From positions 62,001-126,000 of the forward strand of contig NZ_BMGA01000004.1 of the NCBI RefSeq assembly GCF_014639535.1: 64,000 nucleotides of DNA, read 5' to 3'. The notes under the pieces are model-generated. The model was not told the DNA's origin and searched no databases. It saw only the letters and a list, made by a program, of their open reading frames with translations. The stretch comes from Flavobacterium palustre (GTDB lineage Bacteria > Bacteroidota > Bacteroidia > Flavobacteriales > Flavobacteriaceae). Each line of letters starts with the position of its first letter. Within the stretch, counting starts at the first letter, position 1. This document shows, piece by piece, positions 39,721 through 46,643 of the stretch. Both the position numbers and the translations under genes were made by a program.

Positions 39721-40620
39721 ATGACAAAAATAACCGTTAAAGAAACACAAAACCCTACGATATTAAAGTTTGAATTTGAGGATTTTATTACCAGAAACGA
39801 AAGTTTTGAGTTTAAAAACATAGATGAAGCCAAATCTTCTCCTCTTGCCCAACAATTATTTTATTTACCATTTGTAAAAACCGTTTATATTTCGGGCAAT
39901 TTTATTGCTATCGAAAGATTCAGCATTGTAGAATGGGACGATGTTAAAGAAGCTGTTGCTGAGCAAATTGAAAACTTTGTAAACAATGGAGGTGTCATTA
40001 TTAACCTTGATGACAACAAACCTAAAAAACAACCCATTACAGTTTACGGAGAAACAACTCCAAATCCTTCGGCATTAAAATTTGTAGTAAGCAGAATGCT
40101 GACTAAAAACGCAGTCGAATATAAAAACATCGACCAAACTGCTTCTTCACCATTGGCAAAAGAATTATTCAAATTTCCTTATGTGAAAGAAATTTTCATT
40201 GATGAAAATTATATTTCTGTAACCAAATACGACTTAAACAGCTGGGACGAAATTACCTTAGAACTAAGAACTTTCATCAAACAATATATTGAAAATGGCG
40301 GAATTGTACTTGATGACAGTGTTGTAATCAATGCCGAAAAGCAAGAGCAAATTAAAAACGAGGAGTTCGAAAAACTGGATGTTACTTCGCAACAAATCAT
40401 CAATATCTTAGAAGAATACGTAAAACCCGCAGTAGCTGCCGACGGTGGAAATATTGCTTTTGAATCTTATGACGAAGAAAGCAAAACAGTAAAGGTAATT
40501 CTTCAGGGAGCTTGCAGTGGCTGTCCTTCTTCAACTTTTACCTTAAAATCAGGAATCGAAAACATGTTGAAAAGCATGCTAAATGATGACAGAATTCAGG
40601 TTGAAGCTATTAATGCTTAA
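39721..40620 (+). CDS. NifU/Nfu iron-sulfur scaffold protein with duplicated Nfu_N domain
   Basis: Nfu carries [4Fe-4S] clusters to target proteins. The 299-residue protein has two related N-terminal domains: residues about 1-90 (TQNPTILKFEF) and about 100-190 (TPNPSALKFVV). Both include SSPLAQQLF or SSPLAKELF. The C-terminal NifU domain (about 220-295) has the cluster-binding Cys pair in GACSGCPSSTFTLKSG. The duplication is common in Bacteroidota. A terminator at 40641-40670 follows, so it is monocistronic. Confidence 0.93.
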   Translation: MTKITVKETQNPTILKFEFEDFITRNESFEFKNIDEAKSSPLAQQLFYLPFVKTVYISGNFIAIERFSIVEWDDVKEAVAEQIENFVNNGGVIINLDDNKPKKQPITVYGETTPNPSALKFVVSRMLTKNAVEYKNIDQTASSPLAKELFKFPYVKEIFIDENYISVTKYDLNSWDEITLELRTFIKQYIENGGIVLDDSVVINAEKQEQIKNEEFEKLDVTSQQIINILEEYVKPAVAADGGNIAFESYDEESKTVKVILQGACSGCPSSTFTLKSGIENMLKSMLNDDRIQVEAINA

Positions 40621-40640
40621 AACAGCCCCTCTTAAAAAGC

Positions 40641-40670
40641 AAAAAGCGTTTCGATTGAAACGCTTTTTTT
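40641..40670 (+). terminator. Terminator after nfu (possibly bidirectional)
   Basis: A perfect 12-bp stem (40641-40652 with 40657-40668) has a GATT loop and is followed by T on the plus strand; an A-run on the other side could serve the kup transcript too. Confidence 0.9.
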
Positions 40671-40714
40671 ATGATCTCGAATCAGAATATAACATTTAGT
40701 TTATCATTCCGATG

Positions 40715-40760
40715 AAGGAGGAATCTCATCAAGTTGATCACACAATGGAGATCACTCCTT
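40715..40760. repeat. Imperfect inverted repeat between nfu and kup
   Basis: AAGGAGGAATCTC (40715-40727) and GAGATCACTCCTT (40748-40760) are inverted repeats with two mismatches across 20 bases, followed by T on the plus strand. It is convergent with kup and may be a second terminator for the plus-strand transcript or a repeat element. Confidence 0.5.
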
Positions 40761-40770
40761 TTTTTGATTA

Positions 40771-42741
40771 TCACCTCATTTCCCGATTCAATTTGATGTT
40801 GGTTATTGGCTGATAAACCAACGGAATTTGTTCTATTTCAACATCTGATTTTTCTAATCCGAACGCTTTCTCATCACTTACTCCCAAACGTTTCAAGAAG
40901 AAATAACCATTCAACAAAAGACCTTCACGCAAGGCAAATTCGTTTTCAATTGACAAAAATTTCTCGATAACAACAAATTTAAAATCGGGTTCATTGTTGT
41001 ATTTGCTGGATCCATCTGATCTAATATGCAAATTGAGCTCTTTATTGGCTACTAATTCTTTGACAATATATTTGAAATACAATTCCGTTTTAGGCTGAAT
41101 CCTGAAACCAACATTAATATTTACCTTAATCACTTTATCCTCAACCAATTCAGACACATCATAAGACAACGTAAAAGGGTCTTCGGTGCGATTAATATGT
41201 AAAAACCAATATACATCCGCTCGTTTCGGTTTTTTGGAAAAAATAGATTTGATGATTTTTTCTTCTATTTCATATCTTCTGTCGGCTTTAGAAAGATAAA
41301 TTAAATGGGTTGCAAATTTAGGAATAGCATCATCCTGACTTAACTCGGCCAGTTGAGTACTATACTTGCCTAATTGTACAAATTGAGTGAATTTGTTATT
41401 GATTTTTCGGGCAAAATACCAAACATACATTACTATAAAAATAAACAATTCAAAAAATAAAAACATCCAACGTTCCTTAATTTTAGCCACATTGGCAATA
41501 AAAAAAGAAATTTCTATAGCCCCAAAAACAGTAAGAAATAAAATAACATATATTTTTTTCCATTTTAATCGGTAATAAATAAAATAGCTTAATAACAGGG
41601 AAGTCATCATCATTGTTATGGTAATAGAAAAACCATAAGCCGCTTCCATGTGAGCGCTTTCTTTAAAATAAATCATCATTAAAACACAACCAAACCAAAG
41701 TATCGCATTGATACTTGGAATGTAGATTTGACCTTTACTATCACTGGGTTGTCTTACAGTAACTCTTGGCCAGAAATTAAGATTCATAGCTTCACTAATT
41801 AACGTAAAACTACCACTTATCAATGCTTGCGAAGCTATGATTGTAGCACAGGTTGATATCATAATACTAGGAAGCAAAAACCAAGTAGGTATGATTTCAA
41901 AGAATGGGTTTCTGCCATTTAACAATGGCTCTCCCTGATGCATCAACCAGGCTGCCTGCCCTAAATATGCAATAACTAAACTTATTTTTACATAAATCCA
42001 GGTAATACGAATGTTTTTAATTCCACAATGTCCTAAATCAGAGTATAAAGCTTCAGCTCCTGTTGTACAAAGAAAAACAGCACCTAACAACCAAAACCCA
42101 TTGGGATAATTAACTAATAAATCATAGGCATAATATGGATTTAATGCCTTCAAAATATCCGGATGATGATTGATTTGATTGATTCCGGCAACAAATAACA
42201 TGGTAAACCAAACAGTCATAATAGGACCGAAAGTCTCCCCTATTACCTGTGTCCCAAAACGCTGGAAGAAAAATAATAACGACAAAATAGCTACCACAAT
42301 GCCTATGGTCAAAAAATTACCCGGGATAATTGTGTTTTCCAACCCCTTAACCATACTCAGTCCTTCAATAGCTGATGAAACAGAAATGGGTGGTGTAATA
42401 ATACCATCAGCTAATAAAGTGGTCGCTCCCAGTATCGTTGGGATTACTAATTTTTTACCATAGCGTCTCACTAATGCGTAGAGAGAGAAAATCCCGCCTT
42501 CTCCCTGATTATCGGCTCGAAGGGTGAGCCAGATATACTTGATGGTGGTTTGAAAAATCAAGGTCCAAAACACACAGGAAACTCCACCATAAACCAACAT
42601 TGTATTAATCTCTTTGGTGCCAATTATTGCTTTGAAAACGTATAGCGGACTCGTTCCAATATCTCCGTAAATAATCCCAAGTGCGACTAAAAGAGACGCA
42701 ATTGTTACCTTATTTGCAACTCCATTTTTTGTTGTATTCAT
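40771..42741 (-). CDS. kup: KUP-family potassium uptake protein
   Basis: From ATG 42741 the protein has 656 residues; 13 codons of upstream frame are not family-like. Kup is a proton-coupled K+ importer. LLVALGIIYGDIGTSPLYVF is the diagnostic N-terminal motif. About twelve transmembrane helices span residues 15-430, including GGIFSLYALVRRYG and CTTGAEALYSDLGHCG. A cytoplasmic C-terminal region of about 200 residues follows. It is transcribed in the same direction as, and 98 bases after, the KdpE-like gene, with candidate binding repeats between them. Confidence 0.94.
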   Translation of the reverse strand: MNTTKNGVANKVTIASLLVALGIIYGDIGTSPLYVFKAIIGTKEINTMLVYGGVSCVFWTLIFQTTIKYIWLTLRADNQGEGGIFSLYALVRRYGKKLVIPTILGATTLLADGIITPPISVSSAIEGLSMVKGLENTIIPGNFLTIGIVVAILSLLFFFQRFGTQVIGETFGPIMTVWFTMLFVAGINQINHHPDILKALNPYYAYDLLVNYPNGFWLLGAVFLCTTGAEALYSDLGHCGIKNIRITWIYVKISLVIAYLGQAAWLMHQGEPLLNGRNPFFEIIPTWFLLPSIMISTCATIIASQALISGSFTLISEAMNLNFWPRVTVRQPSDSKGQIYIPSINAILWFGCVLMMIYFKESAHMEAAYGFSITITMMMTSLLLSYFIYYRLKWKKIYVILFLTVFGAIEISFFIANVAKIKERWMFLFFELFIFIVMYVWYFARKINNKFTQFVQLGKYSTQLAELSQDDAIPKFATHLIYLSKADRRYEIEEKIIKSIFSKKPKRADVYWFLHINRTEDPFTLSYDVSELVEDKVIKVNINVGFRIQPKTELYFKYIVKELVANKELNLHIRSDGSSKYNNEPDFKFVVIEKFLSIENEFALREGLLLNGYFFLKRLGVSDEKAFGLEKSDVEIEQIPLVYQPITNIKLNREMR

Positions 42742-42799
42742 TATATATTTGATTAAAAATTCTAATGATACAAAGTTCAACCAAATGGTATTTACAGAA

Positions 42800-42840
42800 T
42801 ATAAAGATAAATATGCCTGATATAAAGATTTTATAAAGAT
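42800..42840 (-). promoter_or_regulatory. Phased TATAAAGAT repeats upstream of kup (candidate response-regulator site)
   Basis: TATAAAGAT occurs at 42800-42808, 42821-42829 and 42832-42840, with starts 21 and 11 bases apart, about two and one helical turns. On the minus strand the right-hand pair reads TTTATA-N5-TTTATA, close to the direct-repeat KdpE box known from E. coli as I recall it. The left end is 59 bases upstream of the kup ATG. The right repeat touches the last base of the KdpE-like stop codon. Confidence 0.6.
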
Positions 42841-43517
42841 TAACTAAAGCGATAGCCCACGCCACTTTCTGTAATAATGTGCTTAGGCTGATTTGGATTT
42901 TCTTCTATTTTTTTACGCAGTGTTGCAACAAAAACTCTCAGATATTGGGTTTCGGTCTGATAACCAATACCCCAAATCTCCTTTAAAATATACTGATGGG
43001 TCAAAACCCGACCTTCGTTCTTCATAAAAAGAGCCAATAAATTAAATTCGGTAGAAGTAAGTTTAACTATTTCGTTGTTTCGCTTTACTATTCGTGCTCC
43101 AAAATCTATTTGTAAATCATCACAAGAAAGAATACTACTGTCATTATGTAATTGGTTTCTACGAATGGCCGAACGAATTCGGGCAAGAAGTTCGGCAGTT
43201 CTGAAAGGTTTTGTCAAATAATCGGTAGCACCGTTATCAAGGGCTTTTACAATATCTTCTTCACTATCCTGAACCGACAGTATAACAATTGCCTTATTGT
43301 ACCAAGCACGGAGTTCTTGAAGAATTTCGTGACCACTTTTATCAGGTAAACCAATATCCAGTAAAATTAATTCAGGGGGATGATTCACGGCTAAAATCAT
43401 CCCTTCTTTTCCTGTTTCAGCAAACCAGACTTTGTAGTCGTTACTCTCTAAAGTTATTTCGAGTAATTTTCTAATTGGTGCTTCATCATCAATAACCAGT
43501 ATTTCTGCTTTATTCAT
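42840..43517 (-). CDS. kdpE: KdpE-like OmpR-family response regulator
   Basis: The 225-residue protein has a receiver (about residues 1-120; phosphoacceptor D54 in LILLDIGLPDKSGHE, Lys in DYLTKPFRTAEL). A winged-helix Trans_reg_C domain (about 130-224) has LTSTEFNLLALFMKNEGRV and the recognition region YLRVFVATLRKKIE. Its sequence style and pairing with a DUF4118 kinase match KdpE, the regulator of the kdpFABC K+ ATPase in other bacteria. The structural kdp genes are not in the window; kup is next. Confidence 0.88.
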   Translation of the reverse strand: MNKAEILVIDDEAPIRKLLEITLESNDYKVWFAETGKEGMILAVNHPPELILLDIGLPDKSGHEILQELRAWYNKAIVILSVQDSEEDIVKALDNGATDYLTKPFRTAELLARIRSAIRRNQLHNDSSILSCDDLQIDFGARIVKRNNEIVKLTSTEFNLLALFMKNEGRVLTHQYILKEIWGIGYQTETQYLRVFVATLRKKIEENPNQPKHIITESGVGYRFS

Positions 43518-44595
43518 TTTTGAGATGATTTAAATAAGACGTTTCTGCCAGTATACTTATAGTGAAGCAAGCCCCGGAATGATTTGGATTATTTTTTAAT
43601 ACAATTGTTCCGTTGTGCGCTTCAACAAAACCTTTTACTATAGACAAACCCAGACCGCTTCCTCCTGTTTTTGTATTGGGTAAACGATAAAATTTATTAA
43701 ATACAAATGGAATTTCTTTCTCAGGAAAACCATTTCCGTTATCCGAAACGGAAAACACACAACAATCTGATTGATACTGAACATCAATTGTTATAATGGT
43801 ATTTTCAGGAGTATATTGTATCGCATTGGTGACTAAATTTTGAATAATTTCTTCAATCAACCCAGTGTCTAATTTGAATAATGGCAGTTGTTCATTTGGA
43901 GTAAAATGAATGGTATGATTGTGTTTAGTAGGAGTATTTTTCTGAATAAGAGTACAAATAAGTTCATTTATATCACACCAATCCTCTTTTAGTTTTAACA
44001 TCCCCGTTTCCAGTCGGCTCATGTTTAATAAATTTTCAACTTGTCCATTGAGTCGAATACCTGCCTTATCAATTTCTTCCAATAATTCTGCCTGATTAGT
44101 TTCAGAAAGTTTGTTTTTATTTTCTTTCAGAATATCGACAGAACCAATAATAGTAGCAATTGGAGTTCGCAACTCATGAGAAAGTGAATTCAGCAAGGTA
44201 TCATAAAGCTGTAATGTTTTTACTTTTTCTTCCTTTTCACGTACTTTATTTTCGGCTTCCCTGATTTTAAAAGTAAAAACAGCACTTACTAACGCAATGA
44301 TAAGATACATTAAAAACAACAGGATATTTTCAGTATCCGTAATGTGAAATGTAAAAAGTGGCTCAATAAAGAAATAGTTTAAAATCAAACCGCTCAGAAC
44401 AGCCGTCAGTAACACAGGAAAAATATCAAAAAGCATCGCTACAAACGAAACAATCATTAACAAAACGAGAGCTGTAATACGATAATCAATATATTTTGAC
44501 GAAAAAAAACAAATTACAGATACTACAAATATTAATATTATGCTAATCAAGCATTGCTTTACTATGGAGTACTTTTGGGCTTTAAATTTTATCAA
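43510..44595 (-). CDS. kdpD: KdpD-like sensor histidine kinase lacking the N-terminal KdpD/Usp domains
   Basis: The 361-residue protein is about 540 residues shorter than E. coli KdpD. It keeps four membrane helices of the DUF4118 domain (about residues 13-115, including PVLLTAVLSGLILNYFFIEP). A HisKA domain follows, with the phosphoacceptor His in LNSLSHELRTPIATIIG (about H140), then an HATPase with QNLVTNAIQYTPEN and SGLGLSIVKGFVEAHNG. It overlaps the regulator gene by 8 bases. The missing N-terminal domains normally bind nucleotide and help sense K+, so signal input may differ. The long form may be split elsewhere in the genome. Confidence 0.88.
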   Translation of the reverse strand: MIKFKAQKYSIVKQCLISIILIFVVSVICFFSSKYIDYRITALVLLMIVSFVAMLFDIFPVLLTAVLSGLILNYFFIEPLFTFHITDTENILLFLMYLIIALVSAVFTFKIREAENKVREKEEKVKTLQLYDTLLNSLSHELRTPIATIIGSVDILKENKNKLSETNQAELLEEIDKAGIRLNGQVENLLNMSRLETGMLKLKEDWCDINELICTLIQKNTPTKHNHTIHFTPNEQLPLFKLDTGLIEEIIQNLVTNAIQYTPENTIITIDVQYQSDCCVFSVSDNGNGFPEKEIPFVFNKFYRLPNTKTGGSGLGLSIVKGFVEAHNGTIVLKNNPNHSGACFTISILAETSYLNHLKNE

Positions 44596-44615
44596 AATAA
44601 GATTAAAATAACTTA

Positions 44616-45284
44616 TTATTTTTTAGAAGTCGTAATCATGAAATCTTTCAAGTAATAAGGCTCAAAATAAGCTACATCTACAAAATCATTCTTTAAAAAT
44701 TTATCATAACTCAATGCGCTCATCTCTTTTGCAGACGGATATACAATTTCATCCAAAAACACAAAATTCTCTTTAGTTAAAACCGTTTTACATTTCCCGG
44801 CACAATCACCCACAAAATACAAGGTTTCCTCAAATTCCTGAAAAGAATCTTCCGTGATAACCTCTGCAAGAATAGCTCTTTTTGATTCTAAATTGCTCGA
44901 AAAAACAGCGCTATAGACTTCCATTCTTCGGGCATCTAACATCGGAACAATTAACCCTTTTTCAATCTTTGCCTGAGCTGCTAATGATTGCAAGGTATCC
45001 ACAGCAATCAACGGAATCCCCAGAGCATAACACAAACCTTTTGCCGCCGAAACGCCTATTCTAAGTCCAGTGTAAGAACCCGGTCCCTGACTTACCGCTA
45101 TAGCAGCCAAATCAGAATAGCTGATTCCCGCTGCTGCAATGCTTTCTTCAATAAACACATGCAAACGTTCGGCATGCGAATAACCTTCCTCTGCTATTTC
45201 GTTACAAACAATCGTTTTCCCTTCTTTGGCAATGGAAACAGAACATCTTTTAGTAGCCGTTTCTATGTTCAGTATATAGTTCAA
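44616..45284 (-). CDS. tsaB: tRNA threonylcarbamoyladenosine biosynthesis protein TsaB
   Basis: TsaB partners TsaD and TsaE in making t6A37 of ANN-decoding tRNAs. The 222-residue protein has NIETATKRCSVSIAKEG, the PGSYTGLRIGVSAAKGLCYA region, and MLDARRMEVYSAVF. These match the ASKHA-fold TsaB family. It is a single gene between the KdpD-like kinase and an efflux adaptor, all on the same strand. Confidence 0.92.
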   Translation of the reverse strand: MNYILNIETATKRCSVSIAKEGKTIVCNEIAEEGYSHAERLHVFIEESIAAAGISYSDLAAIAVSQGPGSYTGLRIGVSAAKGLCYALGIPLIAVDTLQSLAAQAKIEKGLIVPMLDARRMEVYSAVFSSNLESKRAILAEVITEDSFQEFEETLYFVGDCAGKCKTVLTKENFVFLDEIVYPSAKEMSALSYDKFLKNDFVDVAYFEPYYLKDFMITTSKK

Positions 45285-45347
45285 TGGTATTTATTTTTTT
45301 TTTGCAAAGGTCGAAAAAAATTCAAATGTGTCCGAAAAAGAACAGTC

Positions 45348-46643
45348 TTATTTCTTAGTCTCTTCCGTTTTAAGCTTCACTTTATTGCCTGAATTTAATT
45401 CTTTACTTACAGTTGTATAAGGTCCGGTAATGACTTCATCGCCTTTTTTGACACCGCTTATAATTTCAATATTAGTATCGTCCTGAATTCCTGTTTTCAC
45501 AATCTTAATTTTAGCCTTATCACCTACTTTCAGGAAAACACATTCAAATTTCTTATCACTTTTAGGCGCTTCCTTTTTCTCCTCTTTCGGATCAGGAATT
45601 TCTTTATCTGAAATCGCTACAGCCGTCGTATCCGATTTTACAACAACAGCACTAATTGGTACTGCCAAAACATTTTTCTTGGTTTTGGTAATAATATCCA
45701 CCGTAGCAGTCATTCCGGGTCTGAATGGTGAATAGGTTTCTGGTTTTCCAACTAATAAATCCTGATAAGACTCTTTTTGAATTCGAACTTTTACTTTAAA
45801 ATTAGTCACCTGATCGGCGGTCAAAGTGGAACTGGCGGAATTAGAAATACTAGTTACAACTCCTTTGAATTGTTTTTTCAAATAGGCATCTACTTCAACA
45901 TTCGCCAAATCACCAACTTTAATTTTCACAATATCATTTTCATTTACATCTACTTCAACCTCCATATTATTCAAATTGGCTACTCTTAAAAGCTCGGTTC
46001 CTGCCATTTGTTGCGTTCCTAAAACGCGCTCACCTATCTCGACATTCAATACTGAAATTGTTCCGTCGGCCGGTGCATAAATGGTCGTTCTCCCTAAATT
46101 ATCTTTGGCTTCATTAACAGAAGCCGAAGCACTCTGCACATTGTAATAAGCCGACTGTCTGGTTGCTTTTGCAACCTCAAATGAGGCAATAGATTTATCC
46201 CAGTCTGATCTTGAGATTACTCCTTTTTCATACAAGGTTTTATTTCTTTCGTAATTGGCTTTAGCTTCTTTGAAACTGGCTTCGGATTGAGTCAAACCAG
46301 CTTTTGTTCCGGATAAATTAGAAACCGAACGATTGTAACTTGAGGTATATAAATCAGGATTTATTTTTACTAACAAATCCCCTTTTTTAACCACCTGACC
46401 TTCTTTTACATTCAACAAAATGATTTCGCCAGAAACTTCCGGTGCAATTTTCACTTCGATTTCAGGTTGAATTTTCCCGGTTGCCGAAACGGTCTCTACA
46501 ATAGTCATAGGCACAATTTTGGCGGTTTCTATTTCTTTGACATCGTCTTTATTTCCAAAAACACCTTTTTTCCCAAAGTATAACAATGAACCAATTACAA
46601 CTACAAAAACAGCAGCAAGGATATAAATATTTTTTTTAGACAT
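45348..46643 (-). CDS. Periplasmic adaptor (membrane fusion) protein of an efflux system
   Basis: The 431-residue protein has an N-terminal membrane anchor (about residues 7-25). Then come a barrel-sandwich/lipoyl domain (VSATGKIQPEIEVKIAPEVSG and VKEGQVVKKGDLLVKINPD), a helical hairpin (about 110-185), and beta-barrel regions with PFRPGMTATVDIITKTKK. A Lys/Glu-rich insertion (DKEIPDPKEEKKEAPKSD) lies near residues 345-365. This is the HlyD/MacA type, which links an inner-membrane pump to TolC. The TolC gene is 7 bases upstream, but no ABC or RND pump gene is in the operon here. Confidence 0.88.
   Translation of the reverse strand: MSKKNIYILAAVFVVVIGSLLYFGKKGVFGNKDDVKEIETAKIVPMTIVETVSATGKIQPEIEVKIAPEVSGEIILLNVKEGQVVKKGDLLVKINPDLYTSSYNRSVSNLSGTKAGLTQSEASFKEAKANYERNKTLYEKGVISRSDWDKSIASFEVAKATRQSAYYNVQSASASVNEAKDNLGRTTIYAPADGTISVLNVEIGERVLGTQQMAGTELLRVANLNNMEVEVDVNENDIVKIKVGDLANVEVDAYLKKQFKGVVTSISNSASSTLTADQVTNFKVKVRIQKESYQDLLVGKPETYSPFRPGMTATVDIITKTKKNVLAVPISAVVVKSDTTAVAISDKEIPDPKEEKKEAPKSDKKFECVFLKVGDKAKIKIVKTGIQDDTNIEIISGVKKGDEVITGPYTTVSKELNSGNKVKLKTEETKK

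Follow-up and report, generated by a model that had tools for sequence, protein, structure and literature searches.

The window analysed here is a stretch of 64,000 nucleotides from Flavobacterium palustre. Its minus strand carries a kdpD-like gene for a short histidine kinase (43510..44595), a gene for a KdpE-like response regulator (42840..43517) that overlaps the kinase gene by 8 bases, and kup, which encodes a K+ importer (40771..42741). The kinase, 361 aa in length, contains a DUF4118 membrane domain, HisKA and HATPase_c according to Pfam, and the Pfam search found neither the KdpD N-terminal domain (PF02702) nor a GAF domain in it. Its score against the NCBIfam KdpD family (165 bits, cut-off 1123) is below equivalog level. 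The regulator, of 225 aa, had KdpE as its best NCBIfam family with 219.1 bits, under the equivalog cut-off of 325, and E. coli KdpE as its best PDB match. The Kup protein (656 aa from the ATG at 42741) matched Pfam K_trans (PF02705) with 494.5 bits, and its 390.2 bits against NCBIfam kup TIGR00794 leave the equivalog cut-off of 539.6 unmet. The first-pass annotation had remarked that the K+ transporter beside the kinase-regulator pair is Kup in place of Kdp. Kdp is truly absent, as no KdpA was found in the 99.99% complete genome; the genome searches also found no TrkH and no KdpD N-terminal domain (PF02702).

Between the regulator gene and kup, the sequence TATAAAGAT occurs three times on the plus strand, with starts at 42800, 42821 and 42832 (spacings of 21 and 11). 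The last base of the third plus-strand copy, 42840, lies inside the stop codon of the regulator gene (42840-42842). Read on the minus (coding) strand, 42839-42821 is TCTTTATAAAATCTTTATA, which includes TTTATA-N5-TTTATA. These coordinates confirmed the description in the first-pass annotation of three copies with starts 21 and 11 bases apart, two of which form this direct repeat on the coding strand. The likeness to an E. coli KdpE site was also borne out by the account of that site in PMC3264566 (TTTATA and TTTACA, 5 bp apart). One amendment concerns the third copy. Two of the copies form box 1, TCTTTATA-AAA-TCTTTATA (42821..42839, minus strand), a predicted operator of the regulator that spans about -73 to -55 relative to the predicted start, whereas the third copy is the first unit of a separate box 2. 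This degenerate second candidate operator, TCTTTATA-TTC-TGTAAATA (42789..42807, minus strand), has three mismatches and lies at about -41 to -23.

The number of TATAAAGAT copies in the whole window, four, is unremarkable and was reached in 7 of 100 shuffles. To assess the clustering, we made 40,000 dinucleotide shuffles of the spacer region (101 bases, regulator stop codon to kup). Three copies of ATCTTTATA were found in none of these shuffles, the exact box TCTTTATA-N3-TCTTTATA in one, and TTTATA-N5-TTTATA in 93. The repeat cluster is not due to chance. Box 1 is the sole exact copy across the 3,970,070-base genome, and the three genomic sites with one mismatch are all within ORFs. At up to three mismatches there was no genome-wide excess (258 sites versus 287 for the reversed control). 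A DNA search with the spacer only was uninformative, with matches in 5 of 40 genomes at E<=0.001, the genome itself among them and the others short matches.

To place the repeats within a promoter, we used the published Bacteroidetes -7 element, TAnnTTTG at -12 to -5, with TTTG at -33, as given in PMC9723704 and PMC2483708. A kup -7 element, GAACTTTG, is predicted 10 bp after box 2 (42771..42778, minus strand), with transcription predicted to start near 42766. It begins with GA, not TA, and box 2 occupies the place of the expected -33 element. An E. coli-style reading of the promoter was dropped, as the scan gave 24 sites, no excess over the shuffle mean of 23.7.

Relatives were collected by searching named genomes for the regulator; the best 80 of 150 candidate loci were used. 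In 48 of the 80 loci, kup follows the regulator within 1.2 kb. Lack of conservation in relatives had been named in the first-pass annotation as a refutation, and the repeats passed this test: a box with at least 14 of 16 matching positions was found before kup in 39 of the 48 loci, and in the other nine the box was before the kinase gene of the kinase-regulator-kup array. Eight Flavobacteriaceae loci (L071-L075, L077, L079, L080) have no repeats before kup. The repeat-free kup spacers of these eight and of L066 had been considered as counter-evidence; this was dropped because each of these arrays has the box ahead of its kinase gene. At least one box of 14 or more was present in all 80 loci. 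In their 914,104 bases we counted 132 boxes at 14/16 or better, 92 at 15/16 or better and 52 exact boxes, versus 6, 0 and 0 for the reversed pattern.

Sorted by downstream gene, the 132 boxes were located before kup (47), the kinase gene (47), trk genes (22), a small protein gene preceding trkH (9), BBP2 porin genes (4) and no recognised gene (3, in L002 at a contig end, L040 and L077). Two of the 22 trk boxes are doubtful (L047:8001 and L047:8233, 492 and 724 nt before trkA and apparently within trkH). Where insertions lengthened the regulator-kup spacer (L008, L034, L035, L061, L063, L068), the distance from the box to kup was unchanged, and where kup was away from the regulator (L049, L056, L058), the box was still directly before kup. 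In loci without kup, boxes were found before TrkH genes, confirmed by Pfam for L011, L027, L028, L044, L050, L055 and L062. Outside the 80 loci, a distant KimA-like gene is preceded by a box in L237 (PDB KimA 6s3k, E 3.4e-10), and in L250 a box lies between the kinase gene and a divergent KimA-like gene (6s3k, E 1.9e-61). The kinase gene has no box before it in the window and in L001 and L004-L007 (9-11 of 16), the five nearest of the checked relatives that lack this box, and kup is therefore the main visible target there; the corresponding site in L003 reaches 14. The change of regulon to kup suggested in the first-pass annotation is well supported by sequence, but the regulon in relatives is wider, taking in trk, porin, kinase and KimA-like genes, and kdp in deep relatives. 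The presence of K+ genes near boxes is partly expected because the loci were found through the regulator, and related genomes are non-independent trials.

The promoter layout was compared across 39 kup promoters, 38 from relatives and one from the window. These have a second, weaker box at positions 32-50 counted from the start of box 1. The motif.AnnTTTG or.AnTTTTG starts 42 nt past the end of box 1, which is 10 bp past box 2, in 30 of the 39, and the corresponding -7 element is at 41 nt in a further six. Among 37 kinase-gene promoters (box within 45 nt), TAnnTTTG starts exactly 10 bp past the box in 25. Boxes at such positions are the layout expected of an activator of the OmpR/PhoB family. 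The range originally noted, 42800..42840, takes in box 1 together with the first unit of box 2, and the functional unit probably reaches as far as the -7 element at 42771.

Co-occurrence was analysed in a sample of 150 congeneric genomes, with the regulator called at E<=1e-60. The regulator was found in 29 genomes, the exact box in 30 and both in 26, so that the exact box was present in 26 of 29 regulator genomes versus 4 of 121 others (Fisher p ~1e-21, a value that ignores shared ancestry). In the other three regulator genomes (G003, G016, G148), 15/16 boxes are present. A kup of the window type (64-100% identity) was found in 27 of the 29 regulator genomes and in none of the 121 others, and by coordinates it adjoins the regulator in all 27; the commoner kup paralogue in congeners is about 50-55% identical to the window kup. 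Four genomes have the box without a regulator match. In L261 the gene is cut by the contig end, the boxes of L260 and L262 are before no K+ gene, and L263 is the fourth. The exact box of L262 is inside an unrelated ORF, and that of L260 is just past the 3' end of an ORF that we take, from its first residues, to be accC-like. Among further exact boxes from genomes without a regulator match, those of L242 and L243 are inside an unrelated response-regulator ORF, and our queries recognised no K+ gene beside L241. Nor was one recognised beside L240, a second exact box of the regulator genome G303. In a phylum-wide sample of 296 genomes, the regulator was found in 24, the exact box in 12 and both in 9, leaving 15 of the 24 regulator genomes without an exact box.

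To relate these loci to classical Kdp systems, we classified 105 regulator loci (the 80 best-ranked and 25 others) by transporter. We found 55 of kup type, 28 of trk type, 13 of kdp type, two KimA-like and seven with no recognised transporter, some of which are cut by contig ends. The KdpD N-terminal domain was present in all 13 kdp-type kinases (873-901 aa) and in none of the 83 kup and trk loci, whose kinases have 336-409 aa except for two of 208 and 313 (three lengths were not obtained). The kinases of the two KimA-like loci, of 508 and 523 aa, have a GAF domain, and the KdpD N-terminal domain was found in two of the seven unclassified loci. The kdp promoter was testable in 10 of the 13 kdp loci, as L246, L252 and L257 are cut before it. 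A box of 14-16 was found before the kdp genes in seven of these ten deep Bacteroidota loci. No box of 14 or more was found in L247, L253 and L259, of which L247 and L259 had less than 0.8 kb of upstream DNA. In a regulator tree built by a quick method, with several long branches and a root assumed among the kdp types, one branch (88 rows, SH-aLRT 97) unites the kup and trk types and excludes every kdp type. On this tree, the labels kup, trk and kdp require a minimum of five changes, and all five labels require 13.

Of the 55 congeneric genomes with KdpA, 20 kdp loci were fetched, including six also with the regulator. None of the 20 loci has a box of 14 or more before kdpA, and, judged by coordinates, the 2 kb around kdpA are free of exact boxes in all 55 genomes. 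All 20 loci (L268-L287) have a response-regulator receiver match upstream of kdpA; in L269, the one case examined, this response regulator has a sigma-54 activator domain. The KdpD N-terminal domain was above the cut-off in 55 of the 150 congeners, 54 of them within the 55 KdpA genomes, and in six of the 29 regulator genomes, the same six that have KdpA. The domain goes with the pump, not with this regulator. It is shown to be a serine kinase that inhibits KdpFABC in PMC11018627, a study of species in which a Kdp pump is annotated. This inhibition would account for the lack of the domain in genomes that have no pump.

Two of the congeneric loci, L268 (G062) and L269 (G094), have kdp genes directly upstream of a box-kinase-regulator-kup array, with the kup match in L269 split in two. 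This arrangement is perhaps an intermediate or a merged form. L269 also encodes a separate 375-aa KdpD-domain protein downstream of the kdp genes.

The residues of the regulator that could contact DNA were compared with those of E. coli KdpE, using residue numbering carried over through the PDB alignment. Binding by E. coli KdpE needs R193, R200 and T215, and R193 is conserved in KdpE, with the opposite charge in most other family members (binding data in PMC3264566). R194, R201 and T216 of the window's regulator match these three. In a partly redundant set of 196 regulator loci, 194 retain the matching residues and the other two have H at the first place. Three paralogues in the same genome have D there.

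We put the probability at roughly 0.87 that the KdpE-like regulator encoded next to the repeats uses them as its operator to control kup, within a KdpDE-derived switch whose transporter has been exchanged. Two regulator molecules would bind box 1 and, more weakly, box 2, and the regulator, bound in its phosphorylated form, would recruit RNA polymerase to kup once the short KdpD-like kinase signalled K+ limitation or turgor stress. The ancestor would have been a classical kdpFABC-KdpDE unit, from which the regulator, the membrane kinase core and the operator were retained. Another transporter would have taken the place of the regulated one, namely kup here and, in relatives, trkH/trkA or a KimA-like gene. 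The N-terminal serine-kinase domain, which acts on KdpFABC, would have been lost from the kinase. From comparison of sequences we infer binding by the regulator, activation and not repression, the K+ signal, and a direction of evolutionary change from kdp to kup and trk.

The regulator might instead bind the boxes and repress kup, for example at high K+, or have opposite effects at boxes 1 and 2, as a protein on box 2, which overlaps the promoter region, might equally get in the way of polymerase. We regard this as unlikely, since in both kup and kinase-gene promoters a box is in the -33 place, 10 bp before the -7 element, since box 1 is at the activating distance known from E. coli, and since the KdpE proteins of E. 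coli and M. smegmatis activate kdp in the accounts of PMC3264566 and PMC5401905. It is slightly less probable again that the repeats are the site of another OmpR-family regulator or of a nucleoid protein, or a general AT-rich element of kup promoters. The site is indeed very AT-rich, and the genome also encodes other OmpR-like regulators. However, the box co-occurs with this particular regulator in the 150 congeners and is also found before the kinase gene of the pair and before trk and kdp genes, the three paralogues differ from the regulator at the contact residue, and the second kup paralogue of the genome (C3:266013-267941) has no box before it (best 11/16).

A role of the repeats in RNA, as a terminator, leader or riboswitch, could be imagined for a site between two genes that are possibly transcribed together, as could a chance tandem repeat, but we consider either to be highly improbable. 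No Rfam families were found in 40500-45500, the folding z-score was -0.03, and no terminator-like site was called between the regulator gene and kup. The repeats are direct, not inverted, and chance is excluded by the shuffles and the reversed control.

An operator of the KdpE-like regulator, as we prefer to read the repeats, can be compared with known systems. In the Pho box, bound by PhoB at class II promoters, direct repeats with an 11-bp period replace the upstream promoter element, some 10 bp ahead of the core element. The spacing and position of the repeats are similar here, whereas the sequence and the regulator differ. The half-sites are like those of the E. coli KdpE operator (TTTATA-N5-TTTATA here, TTTATA-N5-TTTACA there), box 1 at its distance from a predicted start compares with the E. 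coli footprint at -72 to -50 (PMC3264566), and the three binding residues are kept. In contrast to the E. coli operator, the site is before kup and not kdpFABC, each half-site is preceded by a constant TC, an additional degenerate box is near the promoter, and the promoter is of Bacteroidetes type. KdpE sites are not universal, as the M. smegmatis motif has no noticeable similarity to others and that of C. acetobutylicum resembles the E. coli one (motif comparison in PMC5401905). The kinase-regulator pair and the DUF4118, HisKA and HATPase_c domains are shared with KdpD/KdpE as described in PMC11018627. Unlike KdpD/KdpE, the system has no N-terminal serine-kinase domain, no GAF domain and no KdpFABC in the genome, and both proteins fall under the NCBIfam equivalog cut-offs.

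KdpDE is the textbook two-component system tied to one pump. We think it likely, with less confidence than for the operator itself, that the KdpE operator and its regulator serve Bacteroidota as a module for K+ limitation that is independent of the transporter. The operator would have been carried from kdpFABC to kup, trk and KimA-like importers and to a porin, and the serine-kinase half of KdpD would have stayed with the pump. The kdpFABC genes of Flavobacterium have no box and stand behind another response-regulator gene, of sigma-54 type in the one case examined. Kup, commonly regarded as constitutive, would serve here for inducible K+ scavenging in a cell that has neither Kdp nor Trk. The kinds of component are known, and what appears to be new is that a conserved KdpE operator is combined with exchanged transporters and with a kinase lacking the pump-directed domain. 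We found no description of KdpE control of kup or trk in Bacteroidota in open-access full text, a search that left subscription papers mostly outside and does not prove absence from print; the portion of PMC10634447 covered by it has nothing on kup.

Evolution appears to have preserved the DNA site and the regulator better than the transporter under their control, and what the kinase lacks is precisely the domain known to have the missing pump as its substrate. One prediction is that Kup and Trk, for which annotation as constitutive comes easily, are regulated in this large phylum, and the site offers a simple sequence test for the K+-starvation regulon. The short kinase could serve as a minimal KdpD, consisting of membrane domain and kinase core, for asking which part senses K+.

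Genes for BBP2-type outer-membrane porins recurred in these loci. They were found after the box in L045, L056, L058, L059 and L263, after kup in L255 and near kdp in L269 and L244, which suggests a K+-related porin. In L263 (G127, 91% complete), the exact box at 123-141 is before the porin gene near a contig end, and neither the regulator nor Kup was detected in that genome. In L011:6939-7304, L044:6802-7173 and L055:8009-8356, the box and trkH are separated by a gene for a small protein of about 110-125 aa. The two that were checked, from L011 and L044, matched no Pfam family. Similar small-protein genes were observed in L014, L015, L019, L026, L027, L057 and L264.
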